IMG/VR virus record: IMGVR_UViG_3300042887_003107
Span: 1 to 21,277 of that record
Length of the DNA: 21,277 nucleotides
From: a virus
Reading direction: 5' to 3' (one strand)
Shown here: positions 3,151-19,886 of the stretch, piece after piece
How the letters are laid out: the number at the start of each line of letters is the position of its first letter
Numbering within the stretch: the first letter of the stretch is position 1
Program-made: the position numbers and the translations under genes
The notes under the pieces: generated by a model
Told to the model about the DNA's origin: nothing
Database searches by the model: none
Seen by the model: only the letters and a program-made list of their open reading frames with translations

Positions 3151-3178
3151 ATTATACAGGAACTGGCAAGATTGTCAA
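3151..3178 (-). promoter_or_regulatory. Consensus sigma70 early promoter P3
   Basis: Minus-strand TTGACA (3173-3178) and TATAAT (3151-3156) with 16 bases between them, including the shared CCAGTTCCTG. The predicted start is near 3144. It shares the AAAACTTTTC upstream element with P1 and the TGTTGAGTGATTGA leader with P2. It drives 2959-3117 and probably reads on into the later cassettes. Confidence 0.85.
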
Positions 3179-3190
3179 GAAAAGTTTTAA

Positions 3191-3235
3191 GTGTTGTTGT
3201 ATCGACACAACACCTGTGTTGCACAGAAACAACAC
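3191..3235 (-). promoter_or_regulatory. Tandem hairpins upstream of promoter P3
   Basis: Two adjacent inverted repeats use the same arm sequence: GTGTTGT 3191-3197 with ACAACAC 3207-3213 (7 bp), and GTGTTG 3216-3221 with CAACAC 3230-3235 (6 bp). The second reaches into the TAG stop of the GIY-YIG gene (3235-3237). The 3118-3234 gap contains only this, promoter P3 and the leader. It may act as a terminator with a weak U-rich tail (minus-strand TTAAAACTTTTC) or as an operator. Confidence 0.5.
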
Positions 3236-3639
3236 TAATTTCTGAGGGTTTTTAGGTGAGAACCGTGGATTTTGCAGTAGATGAGGTTGTTGTACCACTG
3301 GTCGGGGTGCTCGAGGACTCGATTATCGATCTGCTCCCGAACCTCTAGGTAGGATAGTTCCCCCTTACCGAAGCATAGGTGAATGATCTCACGCTTGAAT
3401 TTTTCTTCTCCAAGTCGAACAACATCACCTCTAAGTTCCTCGGATGATGACCAATACTTCTTCCAATCAGATTCTGTTTTGACTCGCTTGACCTTTCCCT
3501 TGACTTGCTTTCGACGCATAGACCAGAACAACTTCTTGCCGATGTATCGCCGCCCTGTCTCGAGACAAGTTATCATGTAGACAAATCCAACTAACTTCTC
3601 ATTAGGACCTGGGTACTCCTGTCCTTCATATAGCCACAT
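3235..3639 (-). CDS. GIY-YIG family endonuclease of T4-like phages
   Basis: This 134-residue protein carries a GIY-YIG core: GFVYMITCLETGRRYIGKK (about 18-36), a basic WSMRRK helix, and a downstream 'YLEVREQ' that may supply the catalytic Glu. It ends with CKIHGSHLKTLRN. The pattern WLYxGxE...GFVYxIT...YIGKK...ESDWKxYxxSSEE...IHxSHxK is one I associate with a putative endonuclease family of T4-like phages, found near nucleotide-metabolism genes. It cuts DNA; whether it is a homing enzyme or degrades host DNA is not decided by sequence. The start codon lies in the stem of a 9-bp hairpin whose loop holds the GGAG Shine-Dalgarno (3636-3660). The stop overlaps the hairpins of the cassette array. 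Confidence 0.8.
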   Translation of the reverse strand: MWLYEGQEYPGPNEKLVGFVYMITCLETGRRYIGKKLFWSMRRKQVKGKVKRVKTESDWKKYWSSSEELRGDVVRLGEEKFKREIIHLCFGKGELSYLEVREQIDNRVLEHPDQWYNNLIYCKIHGSHLKTLRN

Positions 3640-3660
3640 ATTGACTCCAAATCAATATGT
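3636..3660 (-). promoter_or_regulatory. RBS-sequestering hairpin of the GIY-YIG gene
   Basis: In the mRNA, ACAUAUUGA (3652-3660) pairs perfectly with UCAAUAUGU (3636-3644), a 9-bp stem with the 7-base loop UUUGGAG that contains the Shine-Dalgarno. The AUG (3637-3639) is inside the 3' arm. The 5' arm includes the UGA stop (3652-3654) of the zinc-ribbon ORF, so a ribosome terminating there would open the stem and couple translation of the two genes. Confidence 0.7.
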
Positions 3661-5113: not shown

Positions 5114-6109
5114 CTAAGCTGCTTTGCCCCACACCTCTTCCCAAGATCCTGACAATGCTCCTTTTGCATAGTCAGTAGCTTTGTTCTCAAAGAAGTTCGT
5201 ATGAATCGGGGCGTTGATAATTTCCTCAACCCAAGGGAGAGGATTCTTTTTAACTTTCATTATGCCCTTGAGGCCCAAACTAATAAGGCGGCGATCAGCA
5301 ATATAACGAATATAGCGTTTAACATCATCAGCAGATAGATCAGGCATACCGCCCATCCTAAATGATAGATCAATAAAACTATCTTCGAGTTCAACCATTC
5401 TTGTTGCAAGAGTGTAGATTTGAGATTTGAGATCGTCGTTCCAAATTTCTCTATTTTCTTCCACATATGTTCTAAACAGTTTGATCATGTTTTCGGCATG
5501 CATTGTCTCATCAACAATGCTCCAGGTTACAATCTGCCCCATGCCCTTCATCTTTCCATGGCGCGGAAAGTTCAACAGCATGATGAAGGAACTAAATAAT
5601 TGCATCCCTTCTGTAAAGGCACTAAACAAGGCGATGTTGCGAGCGATGCTTGTAGTATCAACTTTCATGTTCAATGGATCGTTTAGATATTCGTGCTTCT
5701 TACGCATCTCATCATACTGCATGAACTCGTTGTAGGTTGTTTCAGGCATGCCTAGCGTCTCAATCAGATGACTGTACGCCGCAACATGTAGAGCCTCCCG
5801 GGCAGCAAATCCTAGCAGCATCATACGCACTTCAGGTTGGGGGAAGTGAGGAAGATAGTTTCCCACATACCCGCCTGCTACATCTATGTCCCCTTGTGTG
5901 AAGAAACGAAAGATGTTCGTTAGAAAATACTTCTCATGTTCAGTCAGTTTGTTTTTCCAATCCTTCACATCTTCGATCATTGGAACTTCGGTATGTAACC
6001 AATGGGCCTGTTCGTGAGCTAACCACGCATCATAGGCCCAAGGATACGAGAAAGGTTTGTAGCTTGTTCTACTATCAGTTAGTTTTGCTTTTTGTTTTTT
6101 GGGTGCCAT
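5114..6109 (-). CDS. nrdB: Ribonucleotide reductase class I beta subunit
   Basis: The radical-generating small subunit of aerobic ribonucleotide reductase, partner of the alpha subunit at 7675-9471. With the ATG at 6107-6109 the product is 331 residues. The diiron ligands fall in order at D74, E105, H108, E167 (FTEG), E201 and H204 (DETMHAEN). The radical tyrosine is Y112 in REALHVAAY, so it looks like a tyrosyl-radical enzyme rather than a Tyr-less subclass. I preferred this start over the ATG at 6133 because AGGAG lies seven bases before it, and there is nothing comparable at 6133. It still overlaps the upstream unknown gene by 35 bases. The C-terminus (EEVWGKAA) is the part expected to dock to the alpha subunit. 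Confidence 0.95.
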   Translation of the reverse strand: MAPKKQKAKLTDSRTSYKPFSYPWAYDAWLAHEQAHWLHTEVPMIEDVKDWKNKLTEHEKYFLTNIFRFFTQGDIDVAGGYVGNYLPHFPQPEVRMMLLGFAAREALHVAAYSHLIETLGMPETTYNEFMQYDEMRKKHEYLNDPLNMKVDTTSIARNIALFSAFTEGMQLFSSFIMLLNFPRHGKMKGMGQIVTWSIVDETMHAENMIKLFRTYVEENREIWNDDLKSQIYTLATRMVELEDSFIDLSFRMGGMPDLSADDVKRYIRYIADRRLISLGLKGIMKVKKNPLPWVEEIINAPIHTNFFENKATDYAKGALSGSWEEVWGKAA

Positions 6110-6761
6110 ATGTTTTCTCCTTTTGGGTTTCATACATTACATCATCGGTATTGCCTAACGCCCATTTGGGATTCGTTTCTACGCGATAGGTCTTTGTACA
6201 AACCTTGAAGTCAGGGAACAGCAGTTTGGGCGGGTTAGATGCTGCATCAAGAAACAATGTCCGATTGTTGGGTTGTGCGGCATACTGTCCGTTGTCTAGT
6301 TGAATGAAGTTAAATGACTTATGATCCTCAGGCCATTCTGCATAAGTGGTATCAAGTGTATTGGGATCACTAAATCCGTTGTCAACCGTGAACAAATATT
6401 GCCCAGAATACCATTGCTTGTCTTTTGCAAAAAACTTCGCAGTTAGATTTCCTAAGAATGCTTTCTTGATCACAGTAACATCATGACTAAAACAATCCCA
6501 AATCTGTAAACTGTCTAGCGATAAAAATTTTTCAGTTTCTAGATCCTCGTTCCGAGACACATACGCATGAAGGGGTAGCTTATCGTACACAGCCCCGTAG
6601 TTGGGCAAGTATGATTCAATTCGAAATGCCTGACCTCGAATAGATTTGATGCTTACCCAAATACAAGGTTCGTATTCACCATGACCTCTTTGAAAGTCAT
6701 AGAGAAACTCCTTTCTAATGTAGCAATGGATAGGAGGAAGATTTGCTACCAAGTGCGCCAT
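6075..6761 (-). CDS. Conserved T4-like phage protein of unknown function
   Basis: A 228-residue protein beginning MAHLVANLPPIHCYIRKEFLYD, with GHGEYEPCIWVSIKSIRGQAFRIESYLPNYGAVYDKLPLHAYV in its first third broken into short strands and turns. I remember this N-terminal pattern from a conserved protein of T4-like marine phages with no assigned function. The middle (about 80-190) is aromatic and beta-rich, and the C-terminus is a basic Lys/Thr tail (EKTYGTQKTKSKTN) that overlaps nrdB. Its ATG overlaps the thioredoxin stop (TAATG). Sitting between thioredoxin and nrdB, it is co-expressed with RNR, which hints at but does not show a role in nucleotide supply. Confidence 0.78.
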   Translation of the reverse strand: MAHLVANLPPIHCYIRKEFLYDFQRGHGEYEPCIWVSIKSIRGQAFRIESYLPNYGAVYDKLPLHAYVSRNEDLETEKFLSLDSLQIWDCFSHDVTVIKKAFLGNLTAKFFAKDKQWYSGQYLFTVDNGFSDPNTLDTTYAEWPEDHKSFNFIQLDNGQYAAQPNNRTLFLDAASNPPKLLFPDFKVCTKTYRVETNPKWALGNTDDVMYETQKEKTYGTQKTKSKTN

Positions 6762-7000
6762 TATTGTTTAACCCACTGCTTGATTTTTTCTGAACTGTGA
6801 ACACCAACCAACCTTGCAATTTCTTTTTCTTCAAACAAAACTAAAGTGGGCACAGAACGAATACCAAACTCAATAGCCATTGCATCATGCATATCGATAT
6901 CAACTACTTCAATTGGAATGTCTAAGTTTGCTGCTTCTAAATTTTTCGCTAGCGCTTTGCAAGGTTGACACCAAGATGCTGTAAATCTAATTAGTTTCAT
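6761..7000 (-). CDS. Thioredoxin/glutaredoxin-like protein
   Basis: A 79-residue minimal thioredoxin fold. The redox motif is C11-Q-P-C14 after the conserved Trp (ASWCQPCK), and the cis-proline loop is SVPTLV with P51. It is shorter than E. coli thioredoxin (about 108), closer to phage thioredoxin/glutaredoxin proteins such as T4 NrdC (87). The likely job is to re-reduce the C-terminal CxxC of the phage NrdA. Location between nrdA and nrdB supports this. ATG has AGGAA about six bases upstream. The 39-base gap between the HNH gene and this start shows no strong promoter or terminator. Confidence 0.9.
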   Translation of the reverse strand: MKLIRFTASWCQPCKALAKNLEAANLDIPIEVVDIDMHDAMAIEFGIRSVPTLVLFEEKEIARLVGVHSSEKIKQWVKQ

Positions 7001-7039: not shown

Positions 7040-7612
7040 TCATTTATGATTTGAATCTTTGCCATTTCTTTTTCGGGTATATGGTTTCATCCCCCTTACG
7101 TAACCCTCAGGAATTGTTTCATGCGGATACAAATATAAATTATCGACCCCGTTGTTATACCACGTCCTACCTTTTACAAAACTATTATTTAAAAATGGAT
7201 TTTTTTCTGGAAACTTTTTCATCGGATTTTCTTCTGATGACATTCTAACAAATGCTTTTTTTCTAGAATTTTCACTTTTTCCTGGATTTTCTATTTTTGA
7301 ATGCCATCGTTTAAATTCTGAATAATGAGTCTTAATGTTGTGAACCATCTTAGATGTTAGCTTTCTATTGCCGTGGGGGTCCCTTAGCATGCACAAAAAG
7401 GCGTAATGAATTTTAGGTTCTTTTGGATAGATTTTTGTGAGTAGCCAATGTGCAAGATAATGTTCTCGATATGTAAGAATAACTAAATTATCGCTGTCAT
7501 CAGTTCCTCCTAAACATTTAGGTAAAATATGATGTTTTTCACAGTATTCTGTATGTTCTAACCTAGATTTTCTTGTCTTTATAATATTATTATAGAGTTT
7601 TAAATAGTCCAT
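7040..7612 (-). CDS. HNH homing endonuclease (free-standing, in the RNR operon)
   Basis: A 190-residue HNH endonuclease. The nuclease core is EKHHILPKCLGGTDDSDNLV (about 25-44) followed by the His of TYREHYLAHWLL. The C-terminal part contains WYNNGVDNLYLYPHETIPEG, a short DNA-binding-type motif often attached to phage homing endonucleases. Such genes spread by cutting alleles that lack them; T4 carries MobE in the equivalent nrdA-nrdB interval. The gene is visibly more A+T-rich than the nrdA and nrdB genes beside it, a sign of separate origin. Its start codon lies in a 13-bp hairpin whose 5' arm is overlapped by a TATAAATA late promoter (7601-7641). The predicted effect is translation only from late transcripts. 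Confidence 0.88.
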   Translation of the reverse strand: MDYLKLYNNIIKTRKSRLEHTEYCEKHHILPKCLGGTDDSDNLVILTYREHYLAHWLLTKIYPKEPKIHYAFLCMLRDPHGNRKLTSKMVHNIKTHYSEFKRWHSKIENPGKSENSRKKAFVRMSSEENPMKKFPEKNPFLNNSFVKGRTWYNNGVDNLYLYPHETIPEGYVRGMKPYTRKRNGKDSNHK

Positions 7613-7639
7613 ATACCCTCCTTTGTTATGGACTATTTA
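7601..7639 (-). promoter_or_regulatory. RBS-sequestering hairpin of the HNH gene
   Basis: The two perfect 13-base arms are 7601-7613 and 7627-7639 (minus-strand 5' arm UAAAUAGUCCAUA), with the 13-base loop ACAAAGGAGGGUA holding the Shine-Dalgarno. The AUG (7610-7612) is in the 3' arm. Read-through RNA from nrdA would form the full stem and hide the start. RNA made from the overlapping late promoter would lack most of the 5' arm. Confidence 0.82.
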
Positions 7640-7641
7640 TA
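7634..7641 (-). promoter_or_regulatory. T4-type late promoter (TATAAATA)
   Basis: A perfect TATAAATA octamer on the minus strand, 22 bases before the HNH start codon. T4 late promoters have only this element and start five to seven bases downstream, here at about 7627-7629. It is embedded in the 5' arm of the hairpin that covers the HNH start. Confidence 0.75.
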
Positions 7642-7674
7642 TCCTTCACAAGTTTCAATTATCTGCGAAGGATA

Positions 7675-9471
7675 CTATTCGCAGGCTAAGCAAGCATCAC
7701 CTTCTGCAAGTGCCTTCAAATCTAGTTCTTGAATAACTTCTCGTTCGATCTTCTTAGAGACTTTATCTGCTTTTCCGATCTTTTCTGAACGGCAATAGTA
7801 TAAAGTCTTGAGTCCTTGTTTCCATGCTTGAAAGTGTACAGCGTGAAGATATTTTATGTTAGCGTCAGGCCTGAAAAAGAGGTTAAGGGATTGTGCTTGG
7901 TCAATGTAACTTTGTCGGTGACTTGCGTGCTCCACAATCCAGCGCTGGTCAATCTCCATAGCCGTTTTGAATACGTCCTTTTCCCAGTCAGATAGTATGT
8001 CAAGGTGCTGTACTGATCCGTCGTTAGCAATGATACTTGACCAGATATCTTGATAATCCAATCGTTTGTCTGCATCACACTTCTCCTTGATGATTGCGTC
8101 TAAGAACTTATTCTTGTTTAGATGAGCACCCGAGAGGGTGTCCTGTCGATAAGCATTAGCACGATAGGGCTCAATTGAAGGACTGGTGTTGCCCATGATG
8201 ATACTAGAAGATGCGTTAGGAGCAATAGCAAGCATGTGGCTAAACCTTTTACCGGTACCAACAGCGTCAGGTGCCTCACCTCTCTCCTTTCCAAGTTCGA
8301 TGTTTGCAACATCTAGACCTTCGCGGATGTGTTTGAACATCCTACGATTCGAACTGATTGCAAGAGGTGACTCCCAGGGAAGGTTTTTCTTGTGCAAGTA
8401 TGCATGAAACCCCAAAGCACCGACTCCGATAGAACGCTCTCGCATCGCTGAATACTTTGCCCTTTGCACAGGTTCGGGGGCATGATCAATAAAGTATTGT
8501 AACACATTATCTAGCATTTCTGCAATGTCCCGCAAAAAGTTTTTATCATTTTTCCACTCATCAAAGTATTCGAGGTTGACAGATGACAAACAGCAGACAG
8601 CAGTACGATCTTTGTCAGTGGGTAGAATGATCTCGCTACATAAGTTTGACTGTTTGATAGACAGACCCAACTTTTTTTGAAACTCAGGCATCTGACTATT
8701 GCTGGTGTCAATAAAATGTAGATAGGGTTCACCTGTGTGCATACGCATCTCAAGAATACGCTGCCAAAGCTCCTTAGCAGAAACTTTATCTCGAACTTGA
8801 CTGTTGTGTGGATCTCTCAGCTCCCATGTATCATCACAGTTAGGATCAAGCATGCACCTTTCAATGATCTGCATGAAGTTGTCGGTGATGTTTATACCAT
8901 GATGCAAGTTCAAACAACGCATGTTCTGGTCGCCCGTCGGTTTCCTCATTTCGAGAAAAATAAGAATATCAGGATGACTGATATCAAGATAGGCAGCGTA
9001 AGAACCTCTCCGAGTCCTGCCTTGCCTGTACGCCAACGAAGATGCATCATATGTCCTAAGATGAGGCATAACCCCAACTGACTTATCGTCAGCAGAACGA
9101 ATTCCAATTCCGATACCAATACCGCCTCCTAACATTGAGAGCCAATTTACTTCCGCCAAACAATCGACCAGACCCTCTGCACTATCGTGTAGATAAGGGA
9201 GAAAGCATGATATAGGAAGGCCGCGACTGCTACGCCCAAAACTGAGAATGGGAGTAGAATAACTGAGCCAATGACGACTGCTGTACTCATATAACCTTTG
9301 AGCATGTTCCTGCGAGGAAGAGAATACTTTTGAGACATAAGCAAACCTTTCTTGTGGTGAGTTTTCATCATCACGCATGTAAGATTCACGGAGCCTTTTT
9401 AACCCTAGGTCATCAAAAAGGGAATCTCTTGAAAAGTCTACAGCAACCCGATGCACAATATTTGTACCCAT
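7675..9471 (-). CDS. nrdA: Ribonucleotide reductase class I alpha subunit, short form
   Basis: The catalytic large subunit of ribonucleotide reductase, which reduces NDPs to dNDPs. Visible landmarks: C89 in ISCFLPYL (redox cysteine of the active site), the NLCSE catalytic loop with N276, thiyl C278 and E280, C293 in VCCLSSVNLE (the redox partner), the paired tyrosines Y558-Y559 in TLYYCRS for radical transfer, and the C-terminal C594/C597 of CLACE that thioredoxin re-reduces. At 598 residues it is much shorter than E. coli or T4 NrdA (about 750-760). The N-terminal ATP-cone domain is absent, so dATP feedback inhibition is probably lost. ATG has AGGG six bases upstream and follows the MazG-like gene by 11 bases. 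Confidence 0.95.
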   Translation of the reverse strand: MGTNIVHRVAVDFSRDSLFDDLGLKRLRESYMRDDENSPQERFAYVSKVFSSSQEHAQRLYEYSSRHWLSYSTPILSFGRSSRGLPISCFLPYLHDSAEGLVDCLAEVNWLSMLGGGIGIGIGIRSADDKSVGVMPHLRTYDASSLAYRQGRTRRGSYAAYLDISHPDILIFLEMRKPTGDQNMRCLNLHHGINITDNFMQIIERCMLDPNCDDTWELRDPHNSQVRDKVSAKELWQRILEMRMHTGEPYLHFIDTSNSQMPEFQKKLGLSIKQSNLCSEIILPTDKDRTAVCCLSSVNLEYFDEWKNDKNFLRDIAEMLDNVLQYFIDHAPEPVQRAKYSAMRERSIGVGALGFHAYLHKKNLPWESPLAISSNRRMFKHIREGLDVANIELGKERGEAPDAVGTGKRFSHMLAIAPNASSSIIMGNTSPSIEPYRANAYRQDTLSGAHLNKNKFLDAIIKEKCDADKRLDYQDIWSSIIANDGSVQHLDILSDWEKDVFKTAMEIDQRWIVEHASHRQSYIDQAQSLNLFFRPDANIKYLHAVHFQAWKQGLKTLYYCRSEKIGKADKVSKKIEREVIQELDLKALAEGDACLACE

Positions 9472-15059: not shown

Positions 15060-15962
15060 TTAGCAATTCCAGCGGCGTAGAGCCTTGTTGATTGGGGAGT
15101 CAGGATCTCTTGAATTTTTTGCACTTGTAAGGCGACTCTTCATACCTTTCATTCTGCGGCAAAATGATAATCTTCTTTTTGCTCTTTTCCCTTTGGGATT
15201 CTTTTCAGTAACAGCAGTTTGTAAGTTTGAACCTGGGTTCTCACGGCGATATGCCTTAACTGCAGCGGGACTCAATCCATCTGTTTTATCCTGACGATTG
15301 ACTTTTTGCCAATCTTCATCAACCTTTGCTTCTGTCATTTCAGAAGTCATATAGTTAGCAACGGTTGAGATGTAATCTTCTGCAAGGGTGATTTTGGATT
15401 GAACCCATTCTGGTAGATTGTCAGCATCATCAAGCATATCATGCACCCTCTTAGCGTTTGCTATGATAGAGCGCAAATCAGATTTAGCCATATCACCTTC
15501 ACGGTCATATTCACCTTCATCGTACTTGTCTTTAACTGCTTCTGTTTGCTGTTTACGCTTTTTCCAATATGAGTCTGGCTTGATAGGCGACTTGCCTTTT
15601 ATTGGAGGGGTTCCTTGCTTAAATCGTTTGAGTGCCTTTTCATACTCAGGATCATCTGATTTAGCTTCCGCCACACCCTGCTTCTTGAGAATAGCAAGGG
15701 CGTCTTTTTCCATCTGCTTTACGGTAATAGATTTACCTGGTGCTTCCTTACCTGTGAAATAATCAGAACCTTTTTTATCTCTTGAACCATAGGTGCTGTG
15801 ACTTACTTTGCCATCACGACCTGGTTGTGGTGCCGACTTATCCATTTCATCTAATGTTTCTTCTTTAACACAAGAACCTTTAGAGTAAGCTGTCTTTCCT
15901 GGCGCAGGTTTATACCCGGGCCAGCATCTTTCTTGTAAATAATCTTTGAATGTTAAAGGCAT
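15060..15962 (-). CDS. Putative capsid-internal protein, modular, ends RRWNC
   Basis: A 300-residue basic/charged protein built of modules. The N-terminus MPLTFKDYLQER resembles the capsid-targeting peptide of T4 internal proteins (MKTYQEFIAEA). Next is the cysteine-containing CWPGYKPAPGKTAYSKGSC, then a QPGRDGKVSHSTYGSRDKKG module, a linker KKQGVAEA, a charged middle, and a C-terminal module DGLSPAAVKAYRRENPGSNL...KRAKRRLSFCRRM...ALRRWNC. I associate this last module with a widespread phage domain (DUF6321-like, name from memory). Cys13, Cys31, the Cys of SFCRR and the final Cys could bind metal or form disulfides. GGAG lies five bases before the ATG. Function is unknown; internal or prohead location is inference from the motifs. 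Confidence 0.72.
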   Translation of the reverse strand: MPLTFKDYLQERCWPGYKPAPGKTAYSKGSCVKEETLDEMDKSAPQPGRDGKVSHSTYGSRDKKGSDYFTGKEAPGKSITVKQMEKDALAILKKQGVAEAKSDDPEYEKALKRFKQGTPPIKGKSPIKPDSYWKKRKQQTEAVKDKYDEGEYDREGDMAKSDLRSIIANAKRVHDMLDDADNLPEWVQSKITLAEDYISTVANYMTSEMTEAKVDEDWQKVNRQDKTDGLSPAAVKAYRRENPGSNLQTAVTEKNPKGKRAKRRLSFCRRMKGMKSRLTSAKNSRDPDSPINKALRRWNC

Positions 15963-18707: not shown

Positions 18708-19856
18708 TTATGCCTTTGAGAACCTAGGATTGTTCAGAATCTGATGCGAAACTTCTTTTGGTACTAATTTAGCAACAGGTCTTAGTCGTCTTTGCTGATC
18801 CCGCTTAAGAAGGACTACACCTTCTGTGTCTGCTGCCTTTCCATCAATCTTTGTGTCCATATCGGTGTGTTTGATACCCTTTAGGACATGCTCAGTGCCT
18901 TTTGAAAGGTGATGGTTGATCTGAAGCGTGTTCTCAAAGGCACTACGATTCTTCTCAACATGATCAGCCATACTTCTAAACTTGTTAATATGTGTTGCTT
19001 TGGCAGCTTCTGTTTTAACAGTACCTGCCTTCTTAACACCCTCTTCTTCCAAATGTGCTTTGTATCCATCTACTGAAGGTGTGGTTCCCTTCCTTGTAGT
19101 CCTATTCATATAGGTGGTAAAATGAGGTTGGTGTTCTTCAGTAAGGTGAGTGTGGTCAGGTTTTGATCCCATAAGAGCCTTTGCTTTCTGCAAATGCATC
19201 TCTGTTGCTTTCCTATCTTTTTCTGCATATGGATGCTTGTTTGGATCAAAGTCAAGATTGGGTTTGAAAACTTCTGAGTGCTGTGCGATAGCACCCTTTG
19301 ACGGTTTGTGTGCTATACCATTTGTTATTTCAGTATGAACTGCTATGCCCAACTTTGCAGGTGTTTTTACCTTATACTGTAGTCGGTTTGCATGTGCAGT
19401 AACAGTTGCACCCTTACGAATACCCTTATCATGCTCAGTGTAGAGTAAGTCACCTTGAACAGTATGACCTTTATTGACAATATGGTGAGCGTGTTCTAGG
19501 ACATTCTTCATAGATGCTGCATAGGAGGGTGCATGTCCAAAGTGCTCATCTATTTCTTCTTCTGTTCTTGCTACCACTCCGCGCCCATGACGGTGTTTGT
19601 CAGAGACGAAAGGACCTTTTTCATCATGTCCCACAACAACAGAAGCACCTCCATCTACCTTATGACTAGCAACAACTGAAGTTGGCTGACCCGTTCTAAG
19701 TTTATGAAACTCATGGATTAAATTGACGCCGTGTTCATGCCCAGGTCCTGGAAGTTCGTGAGGAAGGTCCTTGGCGTGTGTAAGATGTGACAATAATGCG
19801 GCATCCACAGATGTTTTAGTTTTAGCTTCTGTAAGGTAAGATTTTAATGATAGCAT
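18708..19856 (-). CDS. ATP-grasping ligase-superfamily protein (KxDG), putative internal head protein
   Basis: A 382-residue protein with the layout of the DNA/RNA ligase and capping nucleotidyltransferase superfamily. Motif I is K66-V-D68-G69 (SHKVDGGASVVVG), an acidic strand VQGDLLYTEHD lies near 133-143, motif IV is EGVVLLKRD (345-353), and motif V is probably K363 in RPVAKLVP. About 280 residues separate motifs I and IV, more than usual, so there is an insertion. It matches a phage family I remember as DUF6267-like. The N-terminus MLSLKSYLTEA resembles the T4 internal-protein targeting/cleavage peptide. His-rich composition is notable. A TATAAATA late promoter lies 23 bases upstream of the ATG. 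Confidence 0.78.
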   Translation of the reverse strand: MLSLKSYLTEAKTKTSVDAALLSHLTHAKDLPHELPGPGHEHGVNLIHEFHKLRTGQPTSVVASHKVDGGASVVVGHDEKGPFVSDKHRHGRGVVARTEEEIDEHFGHAPSYAASMKNVLEHAHHIVNKGHTVQGDLLYTEHDKGIRKGATVTAHANRLQYKVKTPAKLGIAVHTEITNGIAHKPSKGAIAQHSEVFKPNLDFDPNKHPYAEKDRKATEMHLQKAKALMGSKPDHTHLTEEHQPHFTTYMNRTTRKGTTPSVDGYKAHLEEEGVKKAGTVKTEAAKATHINKFRSMADHVEKNRSAFENTLQINHHLSKGTEHVLKGIKHTDMDTKIDGKAADTEGVVLLKRDQQRRLRPVAKLVPKEVSHQILNNPRFSKA

Positions 19857-19878: not shown

Positions 19879-19886
19879 TATTTATA
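19879..19886 (-). promoter_or_regulatory. T4-type late promoter (TATAAATA)
   Basis: A perfect TATAAATA on the minus strand, followed by AAAAG, with the ligase-like ATG 23 bases downstream. It overlaps the TAG-side end of the structural gene at 19882. Expected transcription start is about five to seven bases downstream. It would drive the six putative internal-protein genes as a late operon. Confidence 0.75.

Follow-up and report, generated by a model that had tools for sequence, protein, structure and literature searches.

Production of a MobE-type HNH homing endonuclease in the early/middle nrdA–nrdB operon of a T4-like phage is very probably controlled by a switch in which a late promoter is placed within an RNA hairpin, as judged from predicted RNA structures. 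According to the proposed mechanism, the HNH start and the codons just after it would be paired with the leader in read-through RNA from nrdA, and this RNA would not be translated. Late in infection, a gp55-bearing polymerase would initiate at TATAAATA within the hairpin. The late RNA would lack the 5′ arm, the Shine–Dalgarno sequence and the AUG would be open, and the enzyme would be made.

Locus and anatomy of the leader

The window, i.e., the whole stretch of DNA analysed, was a record of an uncultured virus with a length of 21,277 bases. The genes of the operon were all located on the minus strand, in the order nrdA, HNH, thioredoxin, ferredoxin-like and nrdB. The genes and leader elements were as follows.

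5114–6133, minus strand: nrdB
6075–6761, minus strand: ferredoxin-like gene
6761–7000, minus strand: thioredoxin gene, downstream of the HNH gene; it adjoins nrdA where relatives lack the HNH gene
7040–7612, minus strand: gene for a MobE-type HNH homing endonuclease (190 aa), an insertion that separates nrdA from the thioredoxin gene
7601–7613, minus strand: 3′ arm of the start-codon hairpin (TATGGACTATTTA), made up of the start codon and the codons directly following, with covariation in relatives
7614–7626, minus strand: hairpin loop of 13 nt, containing the Shine–Dalgarno sequence AAGGAGGG (7616–7623)
7627–7639, minus strand: 5′ arm (TAAATAGTCCATA) of the start-codon hairpin; the late RNA would lack almost all of it
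7634–7641, minus strand: T4-type late promoter TATAAATA, overlapping the 5′ arm over its first six bases
7640–7652, minus strand: candidate operator CTTGTGAAGGATA, which runs into TATAAATA and imperfectly repeats the 3′ end of nrdA (in relatives: CTTGCGAAGGATAA)
7640–7674, minus strand: second hairpin directly after the nrdA stop codon (arms 7640–7650 and 7664–7674), abutting the start-codon hairpin
7675–9471, minus strand: nrdA, ribonucleotide reductase large subunit (Pfam PF02867, E = 4.8e-106)

The gene upstream of HNH was nrdA, and its read-through RNA enters the HNH leader. In terms of its timing in T4, nrdA is an early/middle-transcribed gene. The HNH start was located 62 nt past the nrdA stop. 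At empty sites in relatives, the HNH gene was absent and nrdA was followed directly by thioredoxin or another gene. DNA similarity to named phages (60–80% identity) was almost solely confined to nrdA, and no close cultured phage was found among them.

The HNH protein matched the PHROG 655 homing endonuclease (E = 4.8e-40), T4 MobE (39% identity over 137 aa, E = 2e-27) and Aeh1 MobE (48% over 75 aa in the HNH part, E = 3e-18). In the tree, it was placed within a supported clade of mostly nrdA-linked relatives. T4 mobE likewise lies directly after nrdA, and Aeh1 mobE lies inside nrdA. The protein is homologous to both of these enzymes and is sited at nrdA; therefore, judged by its sequence, it is a MobE-type element in the classical location of mobE with predicted nuclease activity, not an unrelated enzyme. 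The preliminary description had regarded it as an unrelated HNH enzyme and a new convergence in the RNR operon, which fails for a MobE homologue when the Aeh1 mobE device has already been published (PMC2988022).

The inverted repeat 7601–7613/7627–7639 had arms of 13 nt with 100% complementarity and a 13-nt loop, the minus strand being the sense strand. The perfect 13-bp stem over the HNH start codon was exactly as described earlier, and the claimed positions of AAGGAGGG in the loop (7623–7616) and of TATAAATA overlapping the 5′ arm (7641–7634) were borne out by the coordinates. The HNH ATG (7612–7610) was within the 3′ arm, and the stem buried the start codon, codons 2–4 and most of codon 5. 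The predicted late RNA, whose start at approximately 7628 was derived from T4 promoter geometry, would retain about 2 of the 13 bases of the 5′ arm. With two matches in the window versus 0.78 expected, TATAAATA was not rare by itself; its position, rather than its rarity, is what counts.

The second hairpin had been overlooked in the preliminary description. It occupied the gap between the nrdA stop and the start-codon hairpin, and it resembled a hairpin that itself masks the ribosome-binding site (RBS) in other relatives. At the nrdA end (7640–7684, minus strand), a repeat CTGCGAA/TTCGCAG (7663–7669/7678–7684), lying across the nrdA stop, competed with the second hairpin, and the two were mutually exclusive. 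A terminator role for the hairpin was considered and rejected: no U-run followed it, and the terminator scan was negative at this site. The Rfam search of the whole window matched no known RNA family.

Predicted masking of the start codon and its conservation

Three perfect inverted repeats of at least 9 bp with loops of 3–20 nt were found in the whole window. Among 100 dinucleotide shuffles of the window, a repeat of 11 bp occurred in two and one of 12 bp in none. The sense RNA 7690–7570 folded at −31.2 kcal/mol (z = −5.2), a value as low as which was reached in 0 of 200 shuffles. The RNA from 7630 folded at −2.4 kcal/mol (z = +0.6) and was essentially unstructured in this region; all energies were calculated with a thermodynamic model for an assumed temperature of 37 °C. 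The cost of opening the ribosome footprint (−16 to +13) was 14.1 kcal/mol for the read-through RNA versus 2.2 kcal/mol for the late RNA. When the upstream part was shuffled, the cost was 7.3 ± 2.5 kcal/mol, and one of 100 shuffles was as high. When the narrow window from −16 to +3 was opened, this locus alone was not significant (32 of 200 shuffles) because the Shine–Dalgarno sequence sits in the loop. This sequence lies in an open 13-nt loop, and repression would therefore depend on concealment of the AUG and of the footprint downstream of it. The read-through RNA is predicted to mask the initiation region in this model. The earlier claim that read-through RNA hides the start and late RNA frees it agrees with these computed costs and with the compensatory changes of relatives, translation itself being the predicted part.

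The leader set consisted of 114 distinct leaders of this HNH family, taken from viral contigs and from the T4 and Aeh1 genes. The late motif was found in 42 of them. A late-type motif located 23–35 nt before the start was present in 20 of the 24 leaders following nrdA. The median occlusion lost in the late RNA was 10.6 kcal/mol for the 42 motif leaders versus 3.05 kcal/mol for the leaders without the motif, which were scored with a dummy start (P = 1.7e-10). Moreover, 37 of the 42 motif leaders and 18 of the 20 nrdA-adjacent ones were in the top ~5% of shuffles in the full-footprint test. The near-identical contigs (L001, L002 and L003/L092) had the same leader as the window and are no independent evidence. 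The exceptions were L191/L049, at the same site, in which the late motif was present and the hairpin weak, and L182, L184, L004 and L225, which followed nrdA and had no matching late motif.

Compensatory arm changes, proposed earlier as a check on homologous HNH loci, were found in related loci, as were wobble changes. In ten leaders of the same register, 3 of the 13 pairs were changed on both sides, and 88.5% of the cells were paired versus 27–39% with the arms slid; this set had been selected for the shared register, and its related rows are not independent. Other relatives held stems of 13–15 bp in shifted registers. When G–U and A–C were scored alike, the stems contained 25 G–U versus 3 A–C (P = 1.2e-5, an optimistic value because some G–U cells are shared among close relatives). 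This excess fits a sense-strand RNA, since duplex DNA would favour neither. At two loci (L187:4001 and L188:605), the start codon was GTG, and the hairpin was kept via a U–G wobble.

The same excess bears on a different reading, in which the palindrome serves as a DNA operator for a dimeric protein (perhaps the endonuclease) and the RNA hairpin is incidental. In its favour, the repeat overlaps the promoter, autorepression by I-TevI at a comparable place is known (PMC2988022), and sequences copied from the nrdA 3′ end, the likely target, recur in the leaders. However, the G–U pairs fit sense RNA, the register tracked the start codon and early codons with no fixed dyad, and motif-less leaders were without strong occlusion. 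The DNA operator is thus improbable as an explanation of the repeat.

The hairpins of the family had two layouts. In layout one (window, L110, L187, L245, L255, L258 and L181), the late motif overlapped or abutted the 5′ arm, and the start codon and the codons after it were part of the 3′ arm. The 15-bp stem of L178 and L319 was shifted to codons 2–7, with the AUG in the loop. In layout two (L175, L183, L192, L193 and, in effect, Aeh1), the 3′ arm covered the Shine–Dalgarno sequence, and the late motif was inside the loop or at its edge. The clade of the window (23 rows, support 97) comprised 12 rows of layout one, 7 of layout two and 4 without the motif, the automatic typing being rough for short stems. 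The number of layout switches is uncertain because the HNH tree was built from few columns and many of its forks are weak. The proposed mechanism is well supported; divergent relatives at this site after nrdA retain the late motif together with a predicted occluding hairpin, whose sequence, register and topology vary. The logic was kept while registers and topologies were rebuilt, which argues for steady selection to silence selfish nucleases early. In T4, no viability cost from the endonuclease was found upon deletion of the I-TevI hairpin (PMC2988022).

Late transcription and other endonuclease genes

A homologue of the late sigma factor gp55 was found in all eight of the long relatives (E below 1e-18). 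The motif TATAAATA also preceded the scaffold gene and several others in relatives. Its second copy in the window (19879–19886) was located 22 nt before a downstream gene starting at 19856, and CATAAATA preceded the window gene at 15962.

A survey of 3.9 Mb of sequence was carried out, in which 156 late-motif sites with a Shine–Dalgarno sequence and an open frame were scored. Strict TATAAATA combined with an occlusion of at least 8 kcal/mol was found in 4 of 5 endonuclease clusters versus 0 of 22 others (P = 0.0003), the labels of the non-endonuclease clusters being mostly read from sequence rather than searched. The four positive clusters were MobE-type HNH, PHROG 314, PHROG 10822 HNH and NUMOD4 HNH; the MobE cluster was enriched by design because the survey sequences were gathered partly via an HNH query, and the other three were not sought. 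Strict start-masking late-promoter hairpins occurred at endonuclease genes only, and none was found at structural genes in the 3.9-Mb survey. In these sequences, the device was absent from the structural late genes served by the same promoter type. With looser motifs, a few genes without an endonuclease match also scored high (L255 complement and L341). The L255 gene (895–1470, minus strand), which was not identified as an endonuclease, had CATAAATA and a predicted occlusion of 17.7 kcal/mol. The combination of TATAAATA with strong predicted occlusion of the start was also observed for endonucleases in L339 (553–1002), L058 (9260–9691), L151 (3479–4027) and L016 (7851–8480); the sequence pair of L339 was TATAAATAGACACTCC...GGAGTGTCTATG. 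The convergence put forward in the preliminary description holds in this wider sense, across several endonuclease families of the survey; it is not new, since I-TevI (GIY-YIG) and MobE (HNH) already implied it.

The placement of promoter and hairpin in relatives and in other endonuclease families is also relevant to the possibility that the hairpins terminate or process the nrdA transcript, as a terminator, 3′ stabiliser or RNase site, and are unrelated to the timing of endonuclease translation. The second hairpin begins right at the nrdA stop codon, and T4 mobE contains an internal terminator (PMC2988022). However, the same-strand operon continues through thioredoxin and nrdB and the promoter–hairpin placement is kept, which makes a role limited to the nrdA transcript very unlikely. 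Translational coupling has been proposed for T4 mobE, which overlaps the nrdA stop (PMC2988022), and another endonuclease of the window has a start hairpin overlapped by an upstream stop codon. Applied to this locus, with the start always hidden, expression by ribosomes arriving from nrdA and TATAAATA as a chance match, coupling is the least probable explanation given the 62 nt and the entire second hairpin between the nrdA stop and the HNH start, the recurrence of the late motif in distinct nrdA-adjacent leaders and the prediction of occlusion by motif presence.

Known devices and copies of the nrdA end

The late-promoter switch preferred here has experimentally tested precedents in the Aeh1 mobE and I-TevI devices (PMC2988022, PMC3014915). 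A late or own promoter within an inhibitory hairpin has been published for I-TevI, I-TevII, I-TevIII, segB and the Aeh1 mobE in nrdA (PMC2988022; PMC3014915). Aeh1 mobE (Gibb and Edgell, 2007, 2009, as described in the review PMC2988022) encodes a homologous HNH enzyme, is located in nrdA and has a late promoter within a hairpin that masks the RBS. However, it splits nrdA mid-gene, whereas the window HNH follows nrdA. According to that review and the Aeh1 sequence itself, the Aeh1 3′ arm is wholly before the AUG and covers the Shine–Dalgarno sequence, whereas the 3′ arm of the window is mostly coding and the Shine–Dalgarno sequence is in the loop. For T4 I-TevI, I-TevII and I-TevIII, the hairpin is likewise formed in the early/middle read-through RNA, the promoter (late for I-TevI) is inside it and the RBS is open in their own RNA; unlike the window HNH, these enzymes are intron-encoded with the RBS itself in the stem, and I-TevI is a GIY-YIG enzyme. 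T4 mobE is a homologous HNH gene immediately after nrdA, but its promoters are upstream of nrdA, it overlaps the nrdA stop, it has an internal terminator and no late promoter has been described for it (PMC2988022). In the T4 segB and gene e leaders, a late promoter also drops the 5′ half of an inhibitory hairpin (PMC2988022, PMC3014915); unlike the window HNH, segB encodes a GIY-YIG enzyme in the tRNA region, and e encodes lysozyme and is not a mobile gene.

The principle is therefore already published. Pairing of the Shine–Dalgarno sequence in the stem, which is true of the described cases and perhaps not essential, was absent in the window, and the layout with an open Shine–Dalgarno sequence and a coding 3′ arm is new. 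Also new are the family-wide conservation with structural turnover, in which two hairpin types interchange in one MobE clade, the link to several families of endonuclease, and the presence of nrdA-end copies in leaders. Previously described for about five T4/Aeh1 endonucleases, the device is now seen in dozens of uncultured phages and several families.

The copies of the nrdA 3′ end were evaluated in two classes of leaders. For 17 leaders whose nrdA ended in C..CEG or similar, the mean match was 12.2 versus 8.9 ± 0.2 for shuffled sequences and 9.5 against the nrdA ends of the other class. For nine leaders whose nrdA ended in C..CKL, the corresponding values were 15.0, 10.7 ± 0.4 and 8.6; the rows within each class are related. 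Individual copies were significant in some loci only, and the pooled class-swapped test was significant. The I-TevI operator has 15 of 20 positions in common with the homing site and lies over the late promoter (PMC2988022). The nrdA-end copy at the late promoter resembles this operator, which is proven for I-TevI and only suspected here. An insertion scar, or a duplicate of the nrdA end serving as RBS, could account equally well for the copies. At the empty sites, the nrdA end apparently provides the following gene with its RBS. Two-layer control, in which the nrdA-end copies next to the late promoter act as an autorepression operator and, when inverted, additionally form the hairpin that prevents translation of the early RNA, is a tentative and rather doubtful reading of the leader. 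If true, this design would have had separate origins next to nrdA genes with two different ends and been continually rebuilt.

A second homing endonuclease gene of the window, belonging to another family, was the SegE-like GIY-YIG gene (3235–3639, minus strand), which had its AUG in a perfect 9-bp hairpin (3636–3660) with GGAG in the loop. It had no late motif, and the stop codon of a small upstream ORF was located in the 5′ arm, which suggests coupling instead of a late promoter. Furthermore, three perfect TTGACA-16-TATAAT promoters (2654–2681, 2899–2926 and 3151–3178, minus strand) were found. Each preceded a small gene and was part of a recurring, similar cassette that contained TGTTGT...ACAACA repeats; the last cassette preceded a GIY-YIG gene (2333–2647). 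By their sequence, these cassettes look like repeated early promoters.
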